Shown: positions 12,666-24,898 of the stretch, one piece after another | How the letters are laid out: every line of letters begins with the position of its first letter | Position numbering within the stretch: the stretch's first letter is position 1 | DNA from: Methanomethylovorans sp. | Lineage (GTDB): Archaea > Halobacteriota > Methanosarcinia > Methanosarcinales > Methanosarcinaceae | Direction of reading: 5' to 3' | Assembly: GCA_014361205.1 (NCBI GenBank) | Contig: JACIVZ010000007.1 | Coordinates: 1-41,139, forward strand | DNA: 41,139 nt | Position numbers and translations under genes: made by a program | The notes under the pieces: generated by a model | The model's input: the letters and a program-made list of their open reading frames with translations, nothing else | What the model was told of the DNA's origin: nothing | The model's database searches: none

Positions 12666-14042
12666 ATGACAGAAAAAAAAGAGGAACAAACTAAAAAACT
12701 TTTGATTATTGGCGGTGGTGCTGTTGGCATGGCAGTAGCCACAGGTGCCAGAAGGCACGGGAACTATGACGTAACGGTCATATCTAGTGACAAACATGCC
12801 TCCTACAGCCAATGTGGAATACCATACGTATTTTCTGGAGATGTTCCAAGCTTTGAACAATTAATAATAAGGGACTCTGAGTTTTTCAGAGAAATGGGAA
12901 TCAATCTAAGGCTTGACACTCATGTAGACTCTATTGACCTTGAAAACAATTCAATTACTGTTGGAAACGAAAAACTAACTTTTGACAAGCTTGTGATAGC
13001 CACCGGAAGCTTGCCATACATACCTAGAAATATAGAAAAAAGTATCCTGCTAAAAAATGTATTCACTCTGCGTACCTTATCAGATGGTATGCAGATTGCT
13101 GAAGCTCTGAAGAATGCAAATAATATTGTTATAATTGGAGCTGGTTCCATTGGTAGCGAGGTTGCTGTAGCTACGGCACGCCGAGAAATAAAAACCGTAT
13201 TATTAAATCGGAGTAATACTATCCTTTCATCAAGTCTTGATCCTGATATGGCAGAAATAGTGATATCATACCTCAAAAAGGAGGGAGTTGAAGTATTAAC
13301 TGGCCATGTTCCTGAATCTATCACTAGCAAAGATAATACTATATCAGTTACAGTTAATGGAAGGGAAATTGCTGCAGATCTTGTATTGATATCAGTTGGT
13401 GTAACCCCTCAGACAACTCTAGCATCAAAGGCTGGAATCGATATTGGAACTACAGGCGGAATTCTTACAAATGACAGACTTCAAGTATTATCACACGGAA
13501 GGGCTGTAGAAAATGTTTTTGCCGGAGGAGAGTGTACAGAGATCTATAATTTCGTTACAGGTAAACCCATGATTAGCCATTTGGCAAGTACAGCACGTAG
13601 GATGGCAGGAGTAATCATAGATAACCTAACCAATAAAGATACACGCTTCAATTCTGTAGTAAACCCTTGGGTCGCAGTGATTGGCGAGCTGGAAATCGGT
13701 TCAGTGGGAATTACAACTGCAGAAGCAGAAAAGCAAGGGATGAAATTAGTTAGTGGTATATCCATGGGTTCTACCAGAGCTGAATATTTTCCAGGAGCTG
13801 GTAAGATATTCATAAAAGTTTTATTCCATCAAAGATGCTTGGTAGGTGCTCAGATAATTGCAACAGCCGGTACAAAAGAACGCATTGACGGGTTATCGTT
13901 AGCAATAAAGAGGAAACAAACCATAGATGAACTGCTTGAAATGGAGACTTGTTACTCGCCTACTGTAGCTACACTTCAGGACCCTCTTCTTTTCGCTGTT
14001 AAAGGTGCATATAAAAAAATTCCAAAAAAAGGCATTCTATGA
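12666..14042 (+). CDS. FAD/NAD(P)-dependent disulfide oxidoreductase (CoA-disulfide reductase / NADH oxidase family)
   Basis: A 458-residue flavoprotein. The FAD-binding Rossmann motif GGGAVGMAVATGARR is at about 16-30, the NAD(P)-binding GAGSIGSEVAVATARR at about 159-174, and FAGGECTE provides the second FAD contact. The redox-active single cysteine C50 in SQCGIPY marks the CoA-disulfide reductase/NADH oxidase/polysulfide reductase group rather than the two-Cys type. In an oxygen-sensitive methanogen a role in disulfide, sulfur or oxygen removal is plausible, but the substrate is not determined. The stop overlaps the rtcA start by 4 bases, so the two are translationally coupled, although their functions have no obvious link. 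Confidence 0.88.
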   Translation: MTEKKEEQTKKLLIIGGGAVGMAVATGARRHGNYDVTVISSDKHASYSQCGIPYVFSGDVPSFEQLIIRDSEFFREMGINLRLDTHVDSIDLENNSITVGNEKLTFDKLVIATGSLPYIPRNIEKSILLKNVFTLRTLSDGMQIAEALKNANNIVIIGAGSIGSEVAVATARREIKTVLLNRSNTILSSSLDPDMAEIVISYLKKEGVEVLTGHVPESITSKDNTISVTVNGREIAADLVLISVGVTPQTTLASKAGIDIGTTGGILTNDRLQVLSHGRAVENVFAGGECTEIYNFVTGKPMISHLASTARRMAGVIIDNLTNKDTRFNSVVNPWVAVIGELEIGSVGITTAEAEKQGMKLVSGISMGSTRAEYFPGAGKIFIKVLFHQRCLVGAQIIATAGTKERIDGLSLAIKRKQTIDELLEMETCYSPTVATLQDPLLFAVKGAYKKIPKKGIL

Positions 14043-15034
14043 TAGAAATCGATGGCTCTTATGGGGAAGGAGGAGGACAAATCCTTAGAACAGCTATTGC
14101 TTTGGCAAGCATTACATCAACTGACGTGAGAATATTTAATATTAGGGCTCATCGACCTCAACCTGGACTTAAAGCTCAACATATGAAAGCCATAGAAACT
14201 GCGGCAAAGCTCTGTAATGGTGATGTTGAAGGGCTTTATATAGGTTCGCAGGAAATTACCTATTTTCCAATGGAAATAGAGGGGGGTAAATATACAATAG
14301 ATATAGGTACTGCCGGGAGCATATCTCTTCTGCTTCAGTGTATAATGCCTATGACAGCATTTTCCAGTGGTGATATACTACTTGAGATTATTGGTGGAAC
14401 CGATGTTGCGTGGTCCCCTACAATCGATTATCTTAATAATGTGACATGTATAGCACTTAAAGAAATGGGTTACAGATGTAACATAGAAATTTTACAAAGA
14501 GGATATTATCCTGAAGGTGGAGGAAAAGTACGTGCTTCTTTTAAACCAGCAAAATTGTATGGTTTTGATTTTGAACGAAAAGAAGAGAATATAAAGGGAA
14601 TATCACATTCATCTAAGTTACCTGAACACGTAGCAGAGAGACAGTCAGAGGCAGCTAAAAGACTACTTGAAAAACGGGGGATGAAATGTGAGATAGATGT
14701 ATATAGAAAAGATGAATTTTCAACAGGAAGTGGTATAACATTGTGGAGTAACTATACTGGTGCCAGTAGTCTGGGAAAGAAAGGAGTTCCTGCTGAAAAA
14801 GTCGGAGAAATGGCTGCAAAAAACATGATTGAATACCTTACTTCAGGAGCCTCTGTTGACCGTTACCTTGCCGATCAATTAATTACATATATGGGTATTG
14901 CAGGAGAAGGATCATTTACTACAGATAATATAACAAAACACACACTAACAAATATTTATATCACTGAGCTGTTCATGGACGTTAAATTCGACATACAGAA
15001 ACAGGGAAATCTTATCGGTGTCTCGGTAAGATAG
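14039..15034 (+). CDS. rtcA: RNA 3'-terminal phosphate cyclase RtcA
   Basis: Converts an RNA 3'-phosphate to a 2',3'-cyclic phosphate using ATP through a histidine-AMP intermediate. The 331-residue length is normal. The N-terminal GSYGEGGGQILRTAI and HRPQPGLKAQH signatures are present, as are the GYYPEGGGKV and LADQL segments. The likely nucleophile is H301 in ITKHTLTNI, aligning with the catalytic His near the C terminus of bacterial RtcA. It overlaps the flavoprotein gene (ATGA) and converges on kptA, another enzyme that acts on RNA phosphates, 14 bases away. Confidence 0.95.
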   Translation: MIEIDGSYGEGGGQILRTAIALASITSTDVRIFNIRAHRPQPGLKAQHMKAIETAAKLCNGDVEGLYIGSQEITYFPMEIEGGKYTIDIGTAGSISLLLQCIMPMTAFSSGDILLEIIGGTDVAWSPTIDYLNNVTCIALKEMGYRCNIEILQRGYYPEGGGKVRASFKPAKLYGFDFERKEENIKGISHSSKLPEHVAERQSEAAKRLLEKRGMKCEIDVYRKDEFSTGSGITLWSNYTGASSLGKKGVPAEKVGEMAAKNMIEYLTSGASVDRYLADQLITYMGIAGEGSFTTDNITKHTLTNIYITELFMDVKFDIQKQGNLIGVSVR

Positions 15035-15048
15035 CGCAACAATTTAAA

Positions 15049-15684
15049 TCAATTGTCATAATCTACAATACTTAAGTACTCCGGCGGTATATAAGTTGCA
15101 AGAGCAATGTCCTCATTGGCTGTGATGATAGCTATTCCTTCCTTTTGAGCTGATTTCGCATCTATTTCAAGTATTACAGGATTTTCAGTGTGCACAAGTG
15201 CAGCTTCTACAGCCCTTTCATAAGAAGTACTTAAATGCACGTAGGTCTGCCTGATTGGTTTGATACCACTTTCCAGCAACATGTCAACTTCTTCCTGACT
15301 GACACCATAATAAAGAGTTGGAAGATCATTTTCCGGATAATCGGATTCAAGTTCTACATCTACTGAATGACCATACTTTGCTCTTATATGCTTGCCATTT
15401 ATTTCATATCGGTGTTTTTTATCTGACTTAACAAGCGCAATAAGCCTTTCTTTGGTTCCCCACCTATAGCGCTCGCTCAGAACATCCAGAAGATGTCCCA
15501 GATTTACCCAGCCGTGTGGGTCCATTTTTAAACCTACATCTTCAGGGAAATGTCTGAGTGCTCCAGATACGAATTTTCCCAGACGTTCTTCCCGGTCGTC
15601 ATCAAGAACGTAACGGCCTTCTACACCGCATGCCGGACATGTCTCACCTCTGAAATATCCATGCTCATTGCATTTACGGATCAT
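15049..15684 (-). CDS. kptA: RNA 2'-phosphotransferase Tpt1/KptA with N-terminal zinc finger
   Basis: NAD+-dependent enzyme that removes an RNA 2'-phosphate, producing ADP-ribose cyclic phosphate. The Tpt1 catalytic set can be read as R44-H45 (ALRHFPED), R101 (IRAKYGHS) and R157, with the NAD-binding YVHLS around H150 and the VILEID strand near 171. Residues 5-19 add a zinc-finger-like C-x2-H-x7-C-x2-C, as in many archaeal homologues. Length 211. Archaea have no fungal-type splicing ligase, so the natural substrate is unclear. Its gene converges with rtcA. Upstream lies a divergent promoter region shared with the RPA-like gene. Confidence 0.93.
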   Translation of the reverse strand: MIRKCNEHGYFRGETCPACGVEGRYVLDDDREERLGKFVSGALRHFPEDVGLKMDPHGWVNLGHLLDVLSERYRWGTKERLIALVKSDKKHRYEINGKHIRAKYGHSVDVELESDYPENDLPTLYYGVSQEEVDMLLESGIKPIRQTYVHLSTSYERAVEAALVHTENPVILEIDAKSAQKEGIAIITANEDIALATYIPPEYLSIVDYDN

Positions 15685-15883
15685 GATATATCGGTTTTGA
15701 GATGTAATTAATCGTTAATATATGTTATTGAGGAAAGGAAATCTATGATAATCCTATGATAATAGTTTCGTCAGGTTTAATACACACCCATACTATCCGG
15801 TTATACAGAACCAAAGCGATTTATCATATGAGTAACAGCCCCAAATAATATACATATTTATATACGCTTTCTGGAGAACTATC

Positions 15884-17011
15884 ATGAGTGAAATAGATGA
15901 CATCTACTCAAAGCTTAGTAGACATATGACCAAAGAAGAATTTAATAAAAAAGTAAATGAGAAAGTAATACAATTGGGAGGGCTATGTGACGAAAAAACT
16001 GCAGCTATTTTGGTTGCAAATGATCTTGGAGTTAACGAAACTGGGAAATCTTTGCACAAAATAGCTGATATTGAAAAAGAAAGTGGTAATGTAAATTTTA
16101 TTGCAAAGGTTGTTTCGATTTATCCCACAAGGGAATTTATACGTAGCGATGGTACTAAAGGAAGAGTGGGAAATATTCTGGTCGCTGATGAAACAGGGAG
16201 TATAAGGATAACTCTGTGGGATGAGAAAGCAGACTTGATTAATGAAAATGCTATTGAAATTGGACAGAATCTCAAGATAGGCGGTTATGTAAAAGAAGGT
16301 TTTTCAGGAATTGAAGTAAACATAGGTAACAATGGCATATTGACTAAAACAGAGGAAGAAATAGAGGTTAAGCACCCTTCTACAAAAATTTCAGATATCA
16401 AAGATGGAATGGTAAGTATTAATGTAGTTGGAAAGTTGCTTGATATATCAGATGTCCGCACCTTTAACAAAAAAGACGGGACAAAGGGACGTGTAAGAAA
16501 TATAACTATTGGTGATGATACCGGTAAGATTAGGATAACATTGTGGGATGATAAAACAGAAAAGGTAGAAGGATTTCATATAGGAGATTCTGTAGAGGTC
16601 ATCAATGGTTATGCACGAGAAAACAACTTCAATCATCAAATAGAAATACAGATAGGTAATCATGGACTAATAAAGAGAACAGAAATGCCTGTGAAATATG
16701 AAGAAAATTTTACACCCATTTCAGACATCGTCCCTGGAGAATCCTACTCAATACAGGGCTACATATCCGGATTAGGAGAAATAAGGGAGTTTAGGAGGGA
16801 TGATGGGACAATTAACATGGTCTCAAATATATACGTTTCTGATGACACGGGCAGGATAAGGATAGCTTTGTGGGCAGACCATGCATCATTGGTTGATGAG
16901 CTTGATATCGGTACACCCGTGCAGATCATAGATGCCTATGCAAGATCTGGCTTCAATGAAGATGTTGAGCTTAGTGCAGGAAACCGGACAAGGATAATCA
17001 TCAATCCCTGA
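15884..17011 (+). CDS. RPA-like single-stranded DNA-binding protein with three OB folds
   Basis: A 375-residue protein with three OB-fold repeats of about 95 residues (about 62-150, 166-260 and 277-372). Each carries a recognisable core: R-x-F-x-x-DGT, then V-x-N-I, then D-(E/D)-TG-x-IRI-x-LW (ADETGSIRITLW, GDDTGKIRITLW, SDDTGRIRIALW). This matches archaeal replication protein A. It lacks the C4 zinc finger of Methanosarcina RPA2/RPA3 and has one OB fold fewer than the four-OB RPA1. An N-terminal helical domain of about 60 residues precedes the folds. GGAG (15873-15876) lies 7 bases before ATG 15884. Role: coating ssDNA in replication and repair. Confidence 0.9.
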   Translation: MSEIDDIYSKLSRHMTKEEFNKKVNEKVIQLGGLCDEKTAAILVANDLGVNETGKSLHKIADIEKESGNVNFIAKVVSIYPTREFIRSDGTKGRVGNILVADETGSIRITLWDEKADLINENAIEIGQNLKIGGYVKEGFSGIEVNIGNNGILTKTEEEIEVKHPSTKISDIKDGMVSINVVGKLLDISDVRTFNKKDGTKGRVRNITIGDDTGKIRITLWDDKTEKVEGFHIGDSVEVINGYARENNFNHQIEIQIGNHGLIKRTEMPVKYEENFTPISDIVPGESYSIQGYISGLGEIREFRRDDGTINMVSNIYVSDDTGRIRIALWADHASLVDELDIGTPVQIIDAYARSGFNEDVELSAGNRTRIIINP

Positions 17012-17083: not shown

Positions 17084-17149
17084 CAATAAATAATAACACT
17101 TATTCGTGGGCAATCACTTTCCTTTAAAATGACAGGAGCGTGTTATGCA

Positions 17150-17758
17150 ATGGTTTTGGGTGCACAATGGGACCTTGAAACTGACACATCCATTAATGAA
17201 ATCCGTAAAGAAATGTCAGTTCGTGAAGTAATGACCACAAATTTGGTCGTTGCAGATATAAATAAGAGTGTTCTTGAAATTGCCCAAGAGATGATCCGCC
17301 AGAAAGTAGGTAGTGTGATCATCACTGATGATGGTGATCCTGTGGGAATAATAACCGAGACAGATATCATCAGCAAAGTGGTAATAAATGATGCGGTCCC
17401 AAGTACAGTTGTGGCAGGTCAGATAATGTCTTCTCCCATCATAGCAACAAAACCATCAACAAACGTCATAGAAGCTGCAGAACAAATGACTAGATGCAAT
17501 ATCCGAAGGCTTGCAGTAATAGATGGTGACAAAATAGTAGGTATTATTACCGACAGGGATATGCTTGCAATATCTCCCAGTCTTAACACCATTCTTGAAA
17601 GCCTGATCGAATTGCATCGAGACGAGAGTAATTTTGAAGATGAGTCTGGGGTAGAAAGAGGAATATGCCAAGGATGTGGTGCATATACAGACCTTACCCT
17701 TATGAACGGACTAATGCTTTGTGAAGACTGCAAAGAAGAAGAAGGCTATTACGACTAG
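17150..17758 (+). CDS. CBS-pair protein with C-terminal zinc ribbon
   Basis: A 202-residue protein. One Bateman module formed by two CBS motifs (SVREVMTTNLVV to TDIISKVV, then AGQIMSSPIIAT to TDRDMLAISP) is followed by a linker and a zinc ribbon CQGCGAY with CEDC near the C terminus. CBS pairs bind adenosine ligands such as AMP, ATP, SAM or NAD; the ribbon may bind nucleic acid or protein. The frame is open from ATG 17129, but ATG 17150 has GGAG 12 bases upstream, while 17129 has no ribosome-binding site; either is possible. It is the first of five CBS genes. The stop codon sits in a terminator-like hairpin. Confidence 0.9.
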   Translation: MVLGAQWDLETDTSINEIRKEMSVREVMTTNLVVADINKSVLEIAQEMIRQKVGSVIITDDGDPVGIITETDIISKVVINDAVPSTVVAGQIMSSPIIATKPSTNVIEAAEQMTRCNIRRLAVIDGDKIVGIITDRDMLAISPSLNTILESLIELHRDESNFEDESGVERGICQGCGAYTDLTLMNGLMLCEDCKEEEGYYD

Positions 17759-17765
17759 CCTTTTT
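17742..17765 (+). terminator. Terminator or attenuator between first and second CBS genes
   Basis: AAGGCTA (17742-17748) and TAGCCTT (17756-17762) form a 7-bp stem with a 7-base loop, ending in TTTTT (17761-17765). The TAG stop (17756-17758) is in the descending arm. This could separate the first CBS gene from the rest, or act as partial attenuation. Confidence 0.55.
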
Positions 17766-17800
17766 ACGAATAATATGTCCATTCTACATGGAGGATATCT

Positions 17801-18589
17801 ATGACAGTGGAGAGGATAATGTCAAAGAATCCCTTATATGTAAAAGAGACTGACTTTATGACCCATGCACGTCAAGTAATGCGGGATAATTTTTTGAGAG
17901 GTGTGCCCGTAGTAGATGATTCAATGAAAGTTAGTGGGATACTTACAGATGGAGATCTGCTTAAAATACGAGCAACCAAGTCCAACGTAACAGTAAAGGG
18001 ATATATTCATGTGGTGCCAATGATAACACCTGATATGGAGATATTGAAAGCTGCTCGTTTAATGCTTGATGCATCTCTCCACAGGGTACCCGTGGTATCT
18101 GGTTCAGATAGACTGTTAGTAGGAATCCTAAGTGATGTTGATATATTGGCAGCCATAAAACCCACAAAAAAATCTCCCAAAAATATAGGAGATATCATGG
18201 TGAAAAATGTGATAACCTGTTATCCTGATGATAGTGTATCTAAGGTTTGGCATCAGATGCTTGATTATGATTACACGGGAATACCAGTAATATCACATAA
18301 TGATGAAACTATTGGAATGATAACCAGAAGGGATATTATAAAAGCAGGTTACGCAAGAATAGGAGAAGTGGATGGAGAAGGTTCAAAAGCCGGTGAATCA
18401 CCTAAAGTTGAAAAGGTTATGTCTACTCCTATGTACACTTTACCCCCAGAAGCTTCCTTAAATGAAGCCATTGACAAAATCCTGCAATATGACATTGGAA
18501 GGATAGCTGTAGCCAGCAACAGGAAATTATTAGGCATCGTAAGCAGATCTGAATTATTATCTGCATGCCTTATAGGTACTGGTTTATGA
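17801..18589 (+). CDS. Four-CBS-motif protein (double Bateman module)
   Basis: A 262-residue protein made almost entirely of four CBS motifs. They begin at about residues 3 (VERIMSKNPLYV), 68 (HVVPMITPDM), 129 (IGDIMVKNVITC) and 203 (VEKVMSTPMYTL). Typical endings VSGILTDGDLL, LVGILSDVDIL, TIGMITRRDII and LLGIVSRSELL are visible. No catalytic or DNA-binding domain is fused. Expected to bind adenine nucleotides and to act on another protein. A strong GGAGGAT precedes ATG 17801. After the stop an 82-base gap contains a T-rich stretch (about 18622-18636) that could end transcription. Confidence 0.92.
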   Translation: MTVERIMSKNPLYVKETDFMTHARQVMRDNFLRGVPVVDDSMKVSGILTDGDLLKIRATKSNVTVKGYIHVVPMITPDMEILKAARLMLDASLHRVPVVSGSDRLLVGILSDVDILAAIKPTKKSPKNIGDIMVKNVITCYPDDSVSKVWHQMLDYDYTGIPVISHNDETIGMITRRDIIKAGYARIGEVDGEGSKAGESPKVEKVMSTPMYTLPPEASLNEAIDKILQYDIGRIAVASNRKLLGIVSRSELLSACLIGTGL

Positions 18590-18671
18590 AACTGGTAAAA
18601 CTATAATATTCAAAATTAGGACTTTTTTCTTTTTGGTCCCTGAAAGCTGTTAAACACAAGAATGTTTTATT

Positions 18672-19676
18672 GTGCCGGTGGTTGAATTGATAAAGAAAAG
18701 AACTAATTTGGTCACAGAAGATAGATTGAAATTCCAGAAAAATCCTGAATACAGAAATAACCATAAAAAAGACCCTGGTCTGTTCAGTAGTGCAAGTACG
18801 ATGGACGTATCACCTGTTGAATTCAAAGCCAAAATTTCAGAAAAAAAAGGTGATATGGATATTGTGGCCAAAAAAGATGTTATTACTCTGCCACCCACGA
18901 CAACTATCATGGGTGCCATAAAAACGATGACAAACAAAGGCTTTAGAAGAGTACCGATAGCAGATGCAGGCACAAAACGCCTTGAAGGAATAATAACTTC
19001 AATGGACATTGTGAATTTCTTAGGGGGTGGTTCGAAGAACCTGCTTGTAGAGAAATACTACAAAGGAAACTTGCTTGCAGCTATTAATGCTGAAGTGAGA
19101 GAGATAATGCAACAGGATGTAGCGTATATTACTTTAAAAGCAAGTATTTCTGATGCAGTGGAAATGATGATTCAAAGAAACATTGGCGGCTTACCTGTAG
19201 TCGATGAAGATAGCAGAGTATGTGCCATATTCACAGAAAGAGATTTTCTGGATCTGATAGCAGACACTATTGACTATGATTCCATTGGGAACTATATGAG
19301 TACAAAAGTGAAAACTGTACCCTTTGATACTACTATAGAAGAAGCGGCAAAAATAATGGTAAATCGAGGATTCCGGAGATTACCCATTGTAAAAGATGGA
19401 ATATTAATTGGTATTGTTACAGCATCTAATATAATGAATTTCCTGGGAAGTGGAAAAGCATTTGAAAAAATTATTACTGGTAATTTCCATGAGGCTTTCA
19501 GTGAGCCAATAACCTCACTTATAAACAAAGATGTAGTATGGGCTTCTTCAGATATGGATCTGGGAGATGCTGCAAGATTAATGATAGAGAAGAAAGTAGG
19601 TTCTCTACCAGTAATAGATAATGATGTGCTTTGCGGAATCATTACTGAAAGAGATTTCCTACGGGCTGTATATTAA
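18672..19676 (+). CDS. Four-CBS-motif protein with basic N-terminal extension
   Basis: A 334-residue protein. A basic, poorly conserved N terminus of about 60 residues precedes four CBS motifs (starting near 69, 137, 213 and 273). Endings include LEGIITSMDIV, VCAIFTERDFL, LIGIVTASNIM and LCGIITERDFL. The repeated FLGGGS/FLGSGK after motifs one and three shows that the two halves are duplicated. The start is uncertain: GTG 18672 gives the length stated; TTG 18687 has GGTGG six bases upstream and may be the true start. It sits third in the CBS array. Confidence 0.88.
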   Translation: MPVVELIKKRTNLVTEDRLKFQKNPEYRNNHKKDPGLFSSASTMDVSPVEFKAKISEKKGDMDIVAKKDVITLPPTTTIMGAIKTMTNKGFRRVPIADAGTKRLEGIITSMDIVNFLGGGSKNLLVEKYYKGNLLAAINAEVREIMQQDVAYITLKASISDAVEMMIQRNIGGLPVVDEDSRVCAIFTERDFLDLIADTIDYDSIGNYMSTKVKTVPFDTTIEEAAKIMVNRGFRRLPIVKDGILIGIVTASNIMNFLGSGKAFEKIITGNFHEAFSEPITSLINKDVVWASSDMDLGDAARLMIEKKVGSLPVIDNDVLCGIITERDFLRAVY

Positions 19677-19720
19677 ATATCCAAAACGGTAATTAATGAG
19701 TTAATAAGTGGAGGAAGTAA

Positions 19721-20569
19721 ATGAACGTTTCAGATATAATGAGCTCACCTGTCTTCATAATACGACCAGATGAGCCCGTATCACATGCAAGAAATCTAAT
19801 GCTTAAACACAAAATCAGCACTATTGTTGTTGTGGATGATGAAAAAATTCTTGGCGTTATCTCACAGGCAGATCTTAGCAAGAAGCTAGCTCAGGCAGAA
19901 CCCATATGGAGAAGGCGTCCTATCGACAAGATCCCTGTTAGTATGGTGATGACAGAAAATCCAATAACAATCTATCCAGAAGCTACAATCTCTCAAGCCA
20001 GCAACCTCATGCTTGAAAACAACATCAATTACCTTGTTGTGATGAAAAAAGGGCTTGTTGGGATTCTAACAGGAACAGATATTGTAAAATATATTTCCAG
20101 TCTCGACGATAAAAAATTCGATAAGAAAGTATATGAAATCATATCTGATGAGCCTATCCGAGTACATAGACATCACACAATTAACCACACAATAGAAGAG
20201 ATGGAAAAGAATAATGTTGAAGAAGTATTAGTTGTCGATGACGCGGAAAAGGTAGTAGGAATAATATCAGTCAGCAACGTTGCCCTTAACATAATGGCAG
20301 ACTCGAGTGGGGAATTTCCCACCAAAAACATCAAAATGACTCGGCGCTCTACATCTGGAGGTCAGAAGATATATAGGTACATAAAAGAAGTTCCTCTTGT
20401 TGCTGAAGATATTATGTCAGATATAGATACTGTCGTAAAATGGAATGATTCAGTGGTAAAAGCTGCTAAGCTGATTATAGCTGAAAACTCAAAAGTTCTG
20501 CCTGTAGAAAAGGATAACCAAATTGTTGGCGTTATCCGACGGAAAGACTTGATAAGAATAGCACAGTGA
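19721..20569 (+). CDS. Four-CBS-motif protein
   Basis: A 282-residue stand-alone CBS protein. Motifs start near residues 2 (VSDIMSSPVFII), 73 (VSMVMTENPITI), 138 (VYEIISDEPIRV) and 226 (AEDIMSDIDTVV), with endings ILGVISQADLS, LVGILTGTDIV, VVGIISVSNVA and IVGVIRRKDLI. A charged linker (about 197-222, MTRRSTSGGQKIYRYIKEVP) separates motifs three and four. GGAGG lies 9 bases before ATG 19721. The downstream gap is 36 bases, so co-transcription with the next CBS gene is likely. Ligand and partner are unknown. Confidence 0.92.
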   Translation: MNVSDIMSSPVFIIRPDEPVSHARNLMLKHKISTIVVVDDEKILGVISQADLSKKLAQAEPIWRRRPIDKIPVSMVMTENPITIYPEATISQASNLMLENNINYLVVMKKGLVGILTGTDIVKYISSLDDKKFDKKVYEIISDEPIRVHRHHTINHTIEEMEKNNVEEVLVVDDAEKVVGIISVSNVALNIMADSSGEFPTKNIKMTRRSTSGGQKIYRYIKEVPLVAEDIMSDIDTVVKWNDSVVKAAKLIIAENSKVLPVEKDNQIVGVIRRKDLIRIAQ

Positions 20570-20605
20570 AGGAACAAAAACGGAGATAATCTGAAGGTGA
20601 AAGAA

Positions 20606-21382
20606 ATGGAAGTAAAGGATATAATGACAGAGCCCCCAACTATCAATAAATCAGATACCCTATCCCACGCCCTTGATATTATGGAAAAGAAAGAAATGCG
20701 TCGACTTCTTGTGAAAAATGAAGATAAAATAGTTGGCATCCTTACTATGAGAAACCTTACGAGAGAACTTGGTACAAGAAAGAAGGGAAGTATGCCTGCA
20801 TCTTCACTGCATGTGGCTACAGCTGTTTCAGATAACTTTGTTAAGGTCTTCCCAGATGTTAAAGTGAAGGACGCAGTGGTTCTTATTGACAAGAATGAAG
20901 GAGTTATAATAGTCTGTAAGGACGAAAAAGTGATTGGGTGGGTAACCCCTGCAGAACTTCTCCGGACTAATAATTTCAATGGATATGCCGGGGAGTATAT
21001 GCAGAAAGAACCCATAATTGCAAGCCCAGGTGACCGAGTCAGTCATATTAGGCATCTGATGCTCGATAATAATATTGGAAGAGTTCCTATAATAGAAGAT
21101 GGCAAATTGGTAGGTATAGTCAGTGAAAGGGATGTGGTGAAGGCCATGAGAGCTTTCAGGGATATAGTTTCAGGCAACCAGCAGGAAGCCAGAATCAAGA
21201 ACCTGATTGTTGCAGATATCATGAAACGTAGCGTGAAAACAGTTAATACGAATACCCCCCTCTCAGATGTTGCAAAGATTATGCTTGAAGAGAATATCGG
21301 GGGTTTGCCTGTGCTTAACCTTGAAGGTGAGTTTGTAGGATTCATCACAAGAAGAAATCTGGTACATGCAATGGCTCAGTGA
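20606..21382 (+). CDS. Four-CBS-motif protein
   Basis: A 258-residue CBS protein, the fifth in the array. Motifs start near residues 2 ([12 protein letters not shown]), 68 ([13 protein letters not shown]), 130 ([12 protein letters not shown]) and 202 ([12 protein letters not shown]). Motif two is the most divergent, ending in [12 protein letters not shown]. The frame is open from GTG 20597, but ATG 20606 has AGGTGA at the right distance and is preferred. The stop is followed 1 base later by the ATG of the RNA ligase gene, so the two are very tightly coupled. This is the strongest hint in the sequence that the CBS proteins relate to RNA processing. Confidence 0.92.
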
Positions 21383-21383
21383 C

Positions 21384-22550
21384 ATGGAAAAATATACCAT
21401 AACAGGTCTAAACATTGAAAAAGCCGCATCTTTTCTGGGAATTTCTGCTCAAAAGATGCAAGAGATAATAGAGAGAAGAGTATTGGTACCTAACTGGAAC
21501 GAGTACCAATACCTTTTTCGTTTTGAACATAAAGCTTTGAATATCGATATTGGCAGCGTCCTTGTACAAAAGGACGATGTTTTTAGTCTTATTTTCGGAT
21601 TTCCAAAAATCAAAAGGGCAATGCTACTTGGACCTGCTATCAGATCTAACTTCGGTACAATTTCAAAGGTTGCAGTAGAAGAAAAAATGAATGGATATAA
21701 TGTAAGAGTAATACTCCTAGAAGGAAAACTTGTAGCTCTTACACGCAGTGGTCACGTATGCCCTTATTCGTCAGAAAAAGCTAATAACTTATTAGACACT
21801 AGTTTCTTCATTGATAACCCCCAACTTGTTGTCTACGGAGAAATGGTAGGACCTGATAATCCATATGTTCCCCGGAAAATCTACGGGATAGATTCGTTGG
21901 ATTTCTTTGTTTTTGATATGAGACACAAAGATACAGGTTTGCCATTGCCCGTATATGAACGCAGAGAACTTTGTGAAAAATATGGCTTCAAACAGGTAAG
22001 GCTTTTTGGAGAATTCCATATCCAAGAAGCTGCAGATATGGTTACAAATATAATCCGGGATATTGGAAGGAAAGGGCATGAAGGCGTTGTGATTAAAGAT
22101 CCTGAGATGGTATTGCAGCCAATTAAATACACTGCTTCTCAAAGCAATTGTTCTGATCTGCAACATGCCATGAAAGTTTATAATGAAAGCGGAAGGGATT
22201 TTATATTCTCCAGAATAGTAAGAGAAGGCTTCCAGTCGGTGGAATGGGAAGAAAGTGAAGAGGAGTTCAGAAAACGTTGCCTGCAATTGGGAGAAAGTAT
22301 CCTTCGGCCTATGAAAGAATCTATAATAAAGGTCAGGGATGGAGAAAGGGTTACAGAAGAGTTCACTTTACGAGTAAAAGACAGAATTACACTATTAAAG
22401 TTTGAGGAGTACATGAGAAGACTTGGAATGGATATAATATTTAGTGAACCTAAGATTGTGGATGATGAATATCTGGTATATATGACAAAAATCAACAAGA
22501 GTACCAGTGATAAAACTTTGGCTATGTGGGAAGGCCAGTTATGGTCATGA
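21384..22550 (+). CDS. ATP-dependent RNA ligase, Pab1020/Rnl3 family
   Basis: A 388-residue nucleotidyltransferase. Motif I is K101-M-N-G in VEEKMNGYNVRV (adenylated lysine). Motif III is seen in LVVYGEMVG, IIIa in DFFVFDMR, motif IV in HEGVVIKDP and motif V in QPIKYT. The size and the ~130-residue C-terminal domain match the archaeal Pab1020 family, which joins and circularises RNA in vitro as a homodimer. ATG 21384 was chosen over upstream in-frame 21366 because it starts 1 base after the CBS gene stop. In vivo RNA substrates are poorly known. The annotation DNA ligase would be a common mislabel. Confidence 0.9.
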   Translation: MEKYTITGLNIEKAASFLGISAQKMQEIIERRVLVPNWNEYQYLFRFEHKALNIDIGSVLVQKDDVFSLIFGFPKIKRAMLLGPAIRSNFGTISKVAVEEKMNGYNVRVILLEGKLVALTRSGHVCPYSSEKANNLLDTSFFIDNPQLVVYGEMVGPDNPYVPRKIYGIDSLDFFVFDMRHKDTGLPLPVYERRELCEKYGFKQVRLFGEFHIQEAADMVTNIIRDIGRKGHEGVVIKDPEMVLQPIKYTASQSNCSDLQHAMKVYNESGRDFIFSRIVREGFQSVEWEESEEEFRKRCLQLGESILRPMKESIIKVRDGERVTEEFTLRVKDRITLLKFEEYMRRLGMDIIFSEPKIVDDEYLVYMTKINKSTSDKTLAMWEGQLWS

Positions 22551-22600
22551 AAAAATATTGATATAATACATTCGTAATTTAATACAAAACAGGTGTCACT

Positions 22601-23638
22601 ATGACAAAAATTACTATTATAGGAAGCAAGCAAAGTGGTAAATCAACACTAGCTGCCAAACTGGGAAAAAAAGGGAATGTATCTGATATCACAATGTATG
22701 ATTATGCTAAAGGTGATAAAATACTGACAATTATTGATCCTACGGGCTATCCTGATTCTGTTAAACCACTGATTGCTTCCCTTAACCTTTCAGATATTGC
22801 TGTCCTATGTGTGCCTCCCACTGGTCTGGATGTATATGCAGGAGAATGTATTGTCTGTCTGGAGTGTATGGGATACAAACATGGTCTTGTATTACTTACA
22901 AAATCTGATACTACTTACCCACAAGCAACAGATGAATTGAAGACAAAATTGCAGAAGATTACAAAAGGTACAGTACTTGAACATTGGGAACATATAATAG
23001 TATCCACTAAAACCTTTGAAGGAATGGAGGAGTTCAAGGAAAAAATTTTTAATATTGGTGAGGAAATCGATGAAGAGAATATAAAAAAAGCTACTCTTCC
23101 ACCAAGGGTTATGATTGATCAATCTTTCAATGTTACAGGAATTGGCTGTGTTGTACTTGGCATTGTGACACAAGGTACCATTAAAACAAAGGATAAAATG
23201 GTAGCATACCCTATCAAAAAACCTTTGGAAATCAGGTCAATACAGATGCATGATGTGGATGTTAAAACTGCTGCCTGTGGAGCAAGAGTAGGCCTTGCAC
23301 TTAAGGGAATCCAGTCAAAGGATATTGATAGAGGATATGTCCTTTCAAATGATGAAATTGTCAGTAAGGATATTAAAATAAAATGCAAAATTTTGCCTTT
23401 ATCTAAGGGTTTCAATATTGGAAACGTGTTGCATGTATTCGTTGGATTACAATCAGCCCCTCTGCGTGTCAATTGCATAGAAAAAAATGGAAAAAATACA
23501 GATAGTGCCTCAGGAGGAGATGAATGCATCCTTGAACTCACAGGCACTAAGGAAATATCTTATTCACAACAGGATAGGTTCATACTCACAAATCTGGACG
23601 AAAAACAAAGGTTTTTAGGATATGGCTTTCTTCAATGA
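22601..23638 (+). CDS. SelB-like translational GTPase homologue (aSelBL)
   Basis: A 345-residue protein with an EF-Tu/SelB-like G domain and one or two beta-barrel domains. The P-loop GSKQSGKS is intact (residues 8-15). The G3 element reads D46-PTGY instead of DxPGH, and G4 reads TKSD (100-103) instead of NKxD. This combination of an intact P-loop and eroded G3 fits the archaeal SelB-like family aSelBL, which is distinct from selenocysteine SelB. Domain 2 (about 187-260) contains TGIGCVVLGIVTQGTIKTKDK, like EF-Tu domain II. GGTG precedes ATG 22601. Function is unproven; ribosome-related binding is inferred. Downstream gene is convergent with no spacer. Confidence 0.82.
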   Translation: MTKITIIGSKQSGKSTLAAKLGKKGNVSDITMYDYAKGDKILTIIDPTGYPDSVKPLIASLNLSDIAVLCVPPTGLDVYAGECIVCLECMGYKHGLVLLTKSDTTYPQATDELKTKLQKITKGTVLEHWEHIIVSTKTFEGMEEFKEKIFNIGEEIDEENIKKATLPPRVMIDQSFNVTGIGCVVLGIVTQGTIKTKDKMVAYPIKKPLEIRSIQMHDVDVKTAACGARVGLALKGIQSKDIDRGYVLSNDEIVSKDIKIKCKILPLSKGFNIGNVLHVFVGLQSAPLRVNCIEKNGKNTDSASGGDECILELTGTKEISYSQQDRFILTNLDEKQRFLGYGFLQ

Positions 23639-24142
23639 TTATTTTTTGGGAGAAAGCTGTTTAAAGCCATCCAAGATTGATGGCCTTTCCACTGCTTTTG
23701 TAAGAGAAGTATTTTCTGGTAAATCTGTAAATTGAGGCATTTCTAGAGGAGCTGGAGAGCTTGCCTGAAAAGAATCTTTTTTTCTGAAAGAATTGTCAAT
23801 TCCTGAACTTTTATTCGGCTTAGGATGCTGAATCGGTGAAGATGCAGGCAATGTTTTATTCCCATCCAGAGATTTCTTTGAAAAACCTGCCTTCATATCA
23901 CGTTCTCTGTTTCTGGCACCCTCTGATTTACCACATTCATAATTTTCCTTGACAAAATTTCCAAGACCACCTTGGGATGCATATTCATAAAGTGCATTAA
24001 ATCTATCTTTTACCCATCCTATCTCGGAATGTTTATGATAACCCACTTCAAAACCCAGTTCATAGGAGCTTTTTATAAGTATCTGCTTCTGAGCTTCTGT
24101 GAGTTCTATTTTACTTTCATGTTTCTTAAATATCCTGACCAT
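23639..24142 (-). CDS. Hypothetical protein paired with a KaiC-like ATPase
   Basis: I do not recognise this 167-residue protein. The first ~90 residues (KIELTEAQKQILIKSSYELGF and ENYECGKSEGARNRERD) look helical and charged; the rest is Pro/Ser/Lys-rich and probably disordered, with only a short C-terminal conserved-looking stretch. There are no membrane segments. Its stop directly abuts that of the aSelBL gene on the other strand. It starts 12 bases after the KaiC-like ATPase, so is likely in its operon and may be a partner or output protein. The gene call is supported by a full-length frame and operon spacing. Confidence 0.7.
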   Translation of the reverse strand: MVRIFKKHESKIELTEAQKQILIKSSYELGFEVGYHKHSEIGWVKDRFNALYEYASQGGLGNFVKENYECGKSEGARNRERDMKAGFSKKSLDGNKTLPASSPIQHPKPNKSSGIDNSFRKKDSFQASSPAPLEMPQFTDLPENTSLTKAVERPSILDGFKQLSPKK

Positions 24143-24154
24143 GAAATCAATCCA

Positions 24155-24898
24155 TTATTCAAGATATCCTTCTATTTTCAGACCTTTCTCAGTGAACTGC
24201 ACAGTGCGCATATTACAATCATGCTTTGTTCCTCTCATTTTTATAATTTGTATTGCTCTGGTCATATTCTTATCATAAAGGAAATTATGCATGAAAATGA
24301 CGCCATGTGCTGCGAACTGCTCTGTAGAGTAGGCTGTGGGATCTGTCAATTCTCCTATCAGTATGGTGGTACAGCCGAGCTTCTTGAGGTTCCTTATGAA
24401 CCTTGTCATCTCCTTTTCCTGTAAAGAAATATCCTTTGTTGTAAAACGGATAGCAGATACTGAATCCAATACGAGTCTTTTTACATTATATTCTGTCACA
24501 TAAGCAGCTATTTCTTTGAATACCATTGCAGGAGAAGGTGCCTCACTTTCAAGAGAAGTTCTGTTTACCTCATAGTGAGTGGATAGAAGCTCATTTTGCT
24601 CGTCTATGTACCCATATTCCATCCTCGGACCTAAGTCTGCAAACAATAGTTTCTTCATTTTTAAAAGTGGAATCACATTTAATGAATAATTAGACATATC
24701 ATCAATTATATTTTGGGGACTTTCCAATAGAGTTACATACAGACCTACATCGCCTAGGGTAGCACCATGTGCAAGGAATTGTACACAGAATGTTGTTTTA
24801 CCACTACCTGGCGGACCACTTATAAGATACACCCTTTCAGAGAGGAGACCTCCCTGAACGAGTTCATCAAAACCTTCTATTCCTGTTTGTATTCTCAT
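24155..24898 (-). CDS. KaiC-like RecA-superfamily ATPase, single domain
   Basis: A 247-residue protein with one KaiC-type RecA domain. N-terminal TGIEGFDELVQGGL is typical of archaeal KaiC-like proteins. Walker A is GPPGSGKT (28-35), and Walker B is near RLVLDSVSA (about 140-148). It lacks the second KaiC domain and the serine/threonine phosphorylation region of cyanobacterial KaiC. Such proteins in archaea are linked to signalling, motility or regulation, without a common role. AAGG directly precedes ATG 24898. It is divergent from the SpoIIM-family membrane protein, with a short AT-rich shared promoter (24899-24992). Confidence 0.9.
   Translation of the reverse strand: MRIQTGIEGFDELVQGGLLSERVYLISGPPGSGKTTFCVQFLAHGATLGDVGLYVTLLESPQNIIDDMSNYSLNVIPLLKMKKLLFADLGPRMEYGYIDEQNELLSTHYEVNRTSLESEAPSPAMVFKEIAAYVTEYNVKRLVLDSVSAIRFTTKDISLQEKEMTRFIRNLKKLGCTTILIGELTDPTAYSTEQFAAHGVIFMHNFLYDKNMTRAIQIIKMRGTKHDCNMRTVQFTEKGLKIEGYLE

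Follow-up and report, generated by a model that had tools for sequence, protein, structure and literature searches.

The window analysed here, the whole stretch of 41,139 nucleotides from a contig of Methanomethylovorans sp., contains a tandem row of five genes for CBS-domain proteins (CBS1 to CBS5, 17129-21382, with CBS5 as the last), followed by an RNA ligase and by a SelB-like factor, aSelBL. We consider it fairly probable that the run CBS1-CBS2-CBS3-CBS4-CBS5-ligase-aSelBL is a unit for ribosome dormancy and maintenance, in which the ligase takes part alongside the CBS proteins. This reading is built on the gene order and its breadth, on orthology to ribosome-bound chains, on the relocation of CBS2 and CBS3 in one group of genomes, and on ligand motifs, all of which are observed directly.

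The CBS proteins and their counterparts on the ribosome

All five CBS genes lie on the forward strand. CBS1 (17129-17758) carries two CBS domains (Pfam PF00571) and a C-terminal Zn ribbon, whose cysteines C180, C183, C198 and C201 are all invariant in the alignment; CBS2 (17801-18589), CBS3 (18672-19676) and CBS4 (19721-20569) have four CBS domains each, with a conserved basic loop preceding the last one in CBS4, and CBS5 (20606-21382) is a CBS-module protein. CBS1 to CBS5 account for 18 of the 35 CBS domain matches in their own genome. In a sequence search of the PDB, CBS2 to CBS5 each found a different best chain, with E-values of 1e-76 to 6e-105 and the next matches far weaker: the orthologs are chain 4 of 9ZNF for CBS2 (1e-76), chain 5 of 9ZNF for CBS3 (E-values of 1e-104 and 1e-60; this protein resembles MJ1225, 3KH5, as well), chain 6 of 9ZNI for CBS4 (1e-92), and chain 7 of 9ZNI and 9ZNG for CBS5 (6e-105). 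These orthologs occur as pairs in the ribosome entries, those of CBS2 and CBS3 in 9ZNF and those of CBS4 and CBS5 in 9ZNI. A search with the uL2 of the window genome revealed that the uL2 of 9ZNF, 9ZNG and 9ZNI is identical to that of 9NRI, 9NTA, 9O17 and 9OU7, which are ribosomes of Methanosarcina acetivorans from a J Biol Chem 2025 deposit (PMC12605026). Since uL2 is common to both series of entries and the additional chains are orthologs of the window proteins, four of the five CBS proteins are represented by orthologs in modelled ribosome structures. Judged by these matches, CBS2 to CBS5 are best read as putative ribosome-binding proteins rather than as sensors for the ligase. The same pairing emerges independently from four genomes of the Methanolobus group (L281, L283, L284, L285), in which CBS2 and CBS3 have been relocated together and CBS1, CBS4 and CBS5 remain with the ligase. 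No strong match to any chain of the 9ZN series was found for CBS1, the most widespread CBS member, whose top PDB match is MJ1225 (58 bits).

Archaeal CBS modules CM-1 to CM-6 are described in a Nat Commun 2026 paper, the main text of which (PMC13324472) proposes CM-1, -2, -4 and -5 as ribosome hibernation factors, reports that standalone CBS modules are found in M. acetivorans ribosomes in the dormant state, and states that CBS-module genes occur in clusters and that the module of HibA binds AMP; this main text makes no mention of a ligase or of SelB. As presented there, CM-1, CM-2, CM-4 and CM-5 are like the window genes in having CBS modules and clustered genes and in being linked to M. acetivorans ribosomes, where the window proteins have their orthologs in the entry series, whereas CBS1, with its two domains and Zn ribbon, falls outside the four-domain definition of the module. 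Dri from Pyrobaculum calidifontis (9E6Q, 9E7F) also has CBS modules on the ribosome, and CBS4 aligns to its C-terminal half (9E6Q) over 200 residues; in Dri, however, two modules are fused in one chain, whereas in the window the modules are separate genes. HibA from Pyrococcus abyssi, which likewise places an AMP-binding CBS module on the ribosome, shares the module type with the window proteins but carries an HPF/RaiA domain, whereas a Pfam scan of CBS1 to CBS5 returns CBS domains only. Separately, two genomes of genus g5 (L286:7066-8958, L287:7155-9038) have a second CBS1-CBS2 copy, after which CBS3 and CBS4 are naturally fused into one protein of ~630 aa with a Dri-like layout.

Adenosyl motifs of the form G-h-h-[TS]-x-x-D are conserved at both sites of CBS1 and at three of the four sites of CBS3, and are fewer in CBS4 and CBS5 than in CBS1 or CBS3. 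The motifs in CBS1 and CBS3 make nucleotide sensing by the CBS cluster plausible. The first-pass annotation had proposed that adenine-nucleotide sensing by the CBS proteins controls the ligation of translation-related RNA: the motifs speak for the sensing, and the evidence described below speaks against a dedicated control of the ligase. A plausible formulation is that the CBS cluster is a candidate nucleotide sensor, for which the ribosome would be the likelier target.

The RNA ligase, aSelBL and the neighbouring genes

The ligase gene (21384-22550, forward strand) has its ATG at 21384, one base after the TGA stop of CBS5 at 21382, and aSelBL (22601-23638, forward strand) starts at 22601, 50 bases after the end of the ligase at 22550; the spacings were thus reported correctly by the first-pass annotation, and its recognition of an RNA ligase with an intact K101-MNG also holds. 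The protein matches TIGR01209 over its full length with 383 bits (cut-off 136.9), Lig_C (PF18330) with 138 bits, and PF09414; the closest PDB entry is 5D1O, annotated as an ATP-dependent RNA ligase (288 bits), with Pab1020 next. The adenylation lysine of motif I (K-x-[DN]-G) is K101 in EKMNG, with its codon at 21684-21686. This is clearly an ATP-dependent RNA ligase of the archaeal Rnl3/Pab1020 type, predicted to seal 5'-phosphate/3'-OH RNA ends. In a comparison by sequence, family, domains and motif I are as in MthRnl (5D1O) and Pab1020 (2VUG); the window ligase sits in a CBS run. Its PDB matches are isolated ligases only, and none of them is a ligase on a ribosome.

Two further observations concern ligases of other genomes. 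In genus g5, probably Methanococcoides (L033, L036, L099, L110), the reading frame of the ligase contains a conserved TAG codon where the window protein has V61, flanked on either side by conserved sequence; one in-frame TAG is present in eight of the nine genomes, the ninth has Cys at that position, and pylS is found in all nine. It is likely, from these reading frames, that the TAG represents a pyrrolysine in an RNA ligase. No pylS above the cut-off was found in the nearly complete window genome (G000), and a genome of the same genus (G087) has pylS. An archaeal ligase at 49% identity also occurs on a contig labelled Candidatus Dojkabacteria (L197), which is probably a mis-binned archaeal contig.

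With 345 aa and 384 bits to 3WNB, aSelBL belongs to the family of translational GTPase relatives described under that name (PMC3037878; 3WNB). It combines a G domain and a domain II of the SelB/EF-Tu kind, lacks the C-terminal domain of SelB, and scores 141 bits against TIGR00475, under the SelB cut-off of 242; its GTPase domain is altered, with only ~30 residues from the P-loop to the DPTG (DxxG) motif when the sequence is read by eye. Directly after the ligase, aSelBL is found in 49 of 50 Methanosarcinaceae and in no other family of the survey. The suggested link to translation is real; its aSelBL part is confined to Methanosarcinaceae. Part of this adjacency is on record: Atkinson 2011 (PMC3037878) reported a ligase and CBS genes beside aSelBL in Methanosarcinales, taking the ligase for a DNA ligase and drawing no connection between the CBS genes and ribosomes.

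Most neighbours of the CBS cluster are translation- or RNA-end-related. Upstream of the CBS run, the window presents at 14039-17011 an RNA end-processing neighbourhood of the Methanosarcinaceae, consisting of the RNA 3'-terminal phosphate cyclase RtcA (14039-15034, forward; PF01137, 272 bits), a neighbour in several Methanosarcinaceae, the divergent RNA 2'-phosphotransferase Tpt1/KptA (15049-15684, reverse; PF01885, 115 bits), conserved in that family, and an RPA-like OB-fold protein (15884-17011, forward), which precedes CBS1 and is also conserved there. In many families, at ligase-less and other clusters alike, CBS1 is preceded by a divergent gene for an Era-like GTPase together with OapB and OapC, and deoxyhypusine synthase is found downstream of CBS5 in five ligase-less Methanomicrobiales-like loci (L263, L264, L266-L268); the GTPase and the synthase are translation-related, in keeping with the dormancy reading. 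On the other side, an uncharacterised 167-aa protein and a KaiC-like ATPase (23639-24898, reverse) are convergent with aSelBL and are kept beside it in most Methanosarcinaceae outside Methanosarcina. A defence system was considered and rejected, there being no PADLOC match for CBS1 to CBS5, the ligase, aSelBL, KptA or RtcA.

Breadth of the CBS-ligase linkage

Gene order was surveyed in the DNA around ligases from the order and the phylum of the window genome. At 108 of the 120 ligase loci, in families ranging from Methanosarcinaceae to Archaeoglobaceae, a CBS gene is the last upstream member, and because of this the adjacency is not due to chance; conserved adjacency in other archaea, a check that the first-pass annotation had put forward, was found far beyond expectation. 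The order 1-2-3-4-5-ligase occurs in Methanosarcinaceae, Methanoperedenaceae, the ANME-2 families, and families f6, f15, f21, f29 and f32 (9/9 in f6, a class-mate family, and 1/2 in f32). A short form, CBS1-CBS3-ligase without the other CBS genes, is present in 17 of 17 loci of family f9, which we take to be Archaeoglobaceae. The last CBS frame and the ligase start overlap by a median of 4 bases both in this family and in Methanoperedenaceae (f5). In Methanosarcina-like loci (L037-L040, L043, L044, L046, L049, L052) the CBS5-ligase order is kept with the two genes 1.2-1.6 kb apart.

The two parts also occur without each other. Ligases of the haloarchaea-like families f13, f18, f22 and f28 have no CBS neighbours; intact CBS1-5 clusters without a ligase are found in many families and were seen, by direct reading of the loci, in Methanomicrobiales-like and Methanocellaceae-like ones; and genus g17 (family f4) has both the ligase and an intact CBS cluster, at separate places. 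The genes beside lone ligases (haloarchaea-like families and f4) show no relation from one locus to another, and this context was discarded as a clue. Among 247 genomes of the phylum, 90 have the ligase and a CBS3 ortholog, 19 the ligase alone, 69 CBS3 alone, and 69 neither, a co-occurrence whose significance (Fisher p ~1e-7) is inflated by shared ancestry. An obligate partnership with co-loss can be discarded, as CBS3 is kept in 10 of 10 genomes of family f3 tested, all of which are without the ligase. Decay of the ligase while the CBS genes stay is observed in two cases, one being a complete genome (G004, L090) in which the ligase is broken into two frames, and the other a genome (G158, L278) in which a C-terminal ligase remnant is left alone downstream of the CBS cluster.

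Of the two, it is the CBS cluster that is stable, whereas the ligase is an optional partner that holds a conserved position. From the existence of CBS clusters without ligase and of ligases without CBS genes it follows that the functional link is optional, and that a dedicated switch from CBS proteins to ligase is unsupported. The combination of a stable cluster with an optional ligase points to a shared process and counts against the notion that control of ligation is what the CBS proteins are for, a notion that the ribosome-bound orthologs of CBS2 to CBS5 do not support either.

Proposed role and alternative explanations

In the reading that we favour, CBS2 with CBS3 and CBS4 with CBS5 would bind the ribosome as pairs and occupy its functional sites at low energy, the energy signal being probably adenine nucleotides in the sites of CBS1-CBS3. 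The ligase, made together with the CBS proteins and in several lineages presumably by translational coupling, would seal 5'-phosphate/3'-OH ends of ribosome-related RNA, which may be nicked rRNA of stored or waking ribosomes, or C/D-box sRNAs, the guides of rRNA modification. Its place would be beside the CBS proteins in a ribosome process, rather than under their control. aSelBL would be a later, Methanosarcinaceae-specific addition, probably also ribosome- or tRNA-binding. Hibernation in Methanomethylovorans itself, its nucleotide control and the substrate of the ligase are what we infer from the observations. The optional character of the CBS-ligase link, the separation in g17, the PDB matches of the ligase to isolated ligases only, and the missing ribosome-chain match of CBS1 count against this reading, as do the doubts of the T. 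kodakarensis authors described next. Studies of Thermococcus kodakarensis bear on the substrate: in cells without Rnl, circularisation of C/D sRNAs is abolished and rRNA fragments are left close to the sarcin-ricin loop and to the 5' end of 16S rRNA; the authors doubted a direct action of Rnl on rRNA, and Rnl is dispensable for growth (PMC9014305). Circular 23S rRNA is present in M. acetivorans ribosomes, where RtcB has been invoked (PMC12918454); we do not attribute it to Rnl here. A narrower proposal, that the CBS factors park ribosomes at low energy and that the co-expressed ligase re-seals breaks in the parked rRNA when ATP returns so that the old ribosomes can be reused, is in our estimate rather unlikely.

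The T. kodakarensis results can also be placed in an explanation by co-expression alone, according to which C/D-box sRNAs, or other small RNAs, are matured by the ligase for ribosome biogenesis and its gene has a promoter in common with ribosome-maintenance genes, leaving dormant ribosomes untouched. This would account for a ligase that circularises C/D sRNAs and is dispensable, that comes and goes while the CBS cluster stays, and that in Methanosarcina-like loci keeps its order despite the distance from CBS5; we nevertheless hold it to be unlikely, because genes held together by a shared promoter alone would be expected to drift more, whereas the ligase has stayed immediately behind the last CBS gene even in distantly related families, and with translational overlap. 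The overlapping frames and the conserved adjacency can also be invoked for a model in which the CBS proteins sense adenine nucleotides, bind the ligase and turn RNA ligation on or off, as can the complete G-h-h-T-x-x-D motifs in CBS1 and most CBS3 sites, the fact that both the ligase and the CBS proteins handle adenylates, and the minimal CBS1-CBS3-ligase unit of Archaeoglobaceae. Such a switch appears quite improbable in view of the CBS2-CBS5 orthologs on the ribosome, the intact CBS1-5 clusters without ligase and the haloarchaea-like ligases without CBS genes; for the control of a single enzyme, moreover, a set of five CBS genes would be oddly large. That KptA/Tpt1, RtcA and the ligase form a pathway of RNA end healing and sealing, with the CBS genes as bystanders, would agree with the divergent KptA upstream in Methanosarcinaceae, joined by RtcA in several genera, but is very improbable, since in the loci examined outside this family neither KptA nor RtcA is beside the CBS-ligase run, whereas the CBS linkage persists.

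The recognition of CBS clusters as hibernation genes is knowledge of 2025-2026. We found no description of the ligase as their long-standing, position-conserved partner, PMC13324472 being covered by its main text; this partnership over several archaeal families may be what is new here, which is not certain. M. acetivorans, in which ribosomes appear to have been solved together with the products of the neighbouring genes, is genetically tractable. As to the role of archaeal Rnl3 in vivo, the conserved position of the ligase at the end of the CBS run suggests that its substrates be sought in stored or stressed ribosomes.
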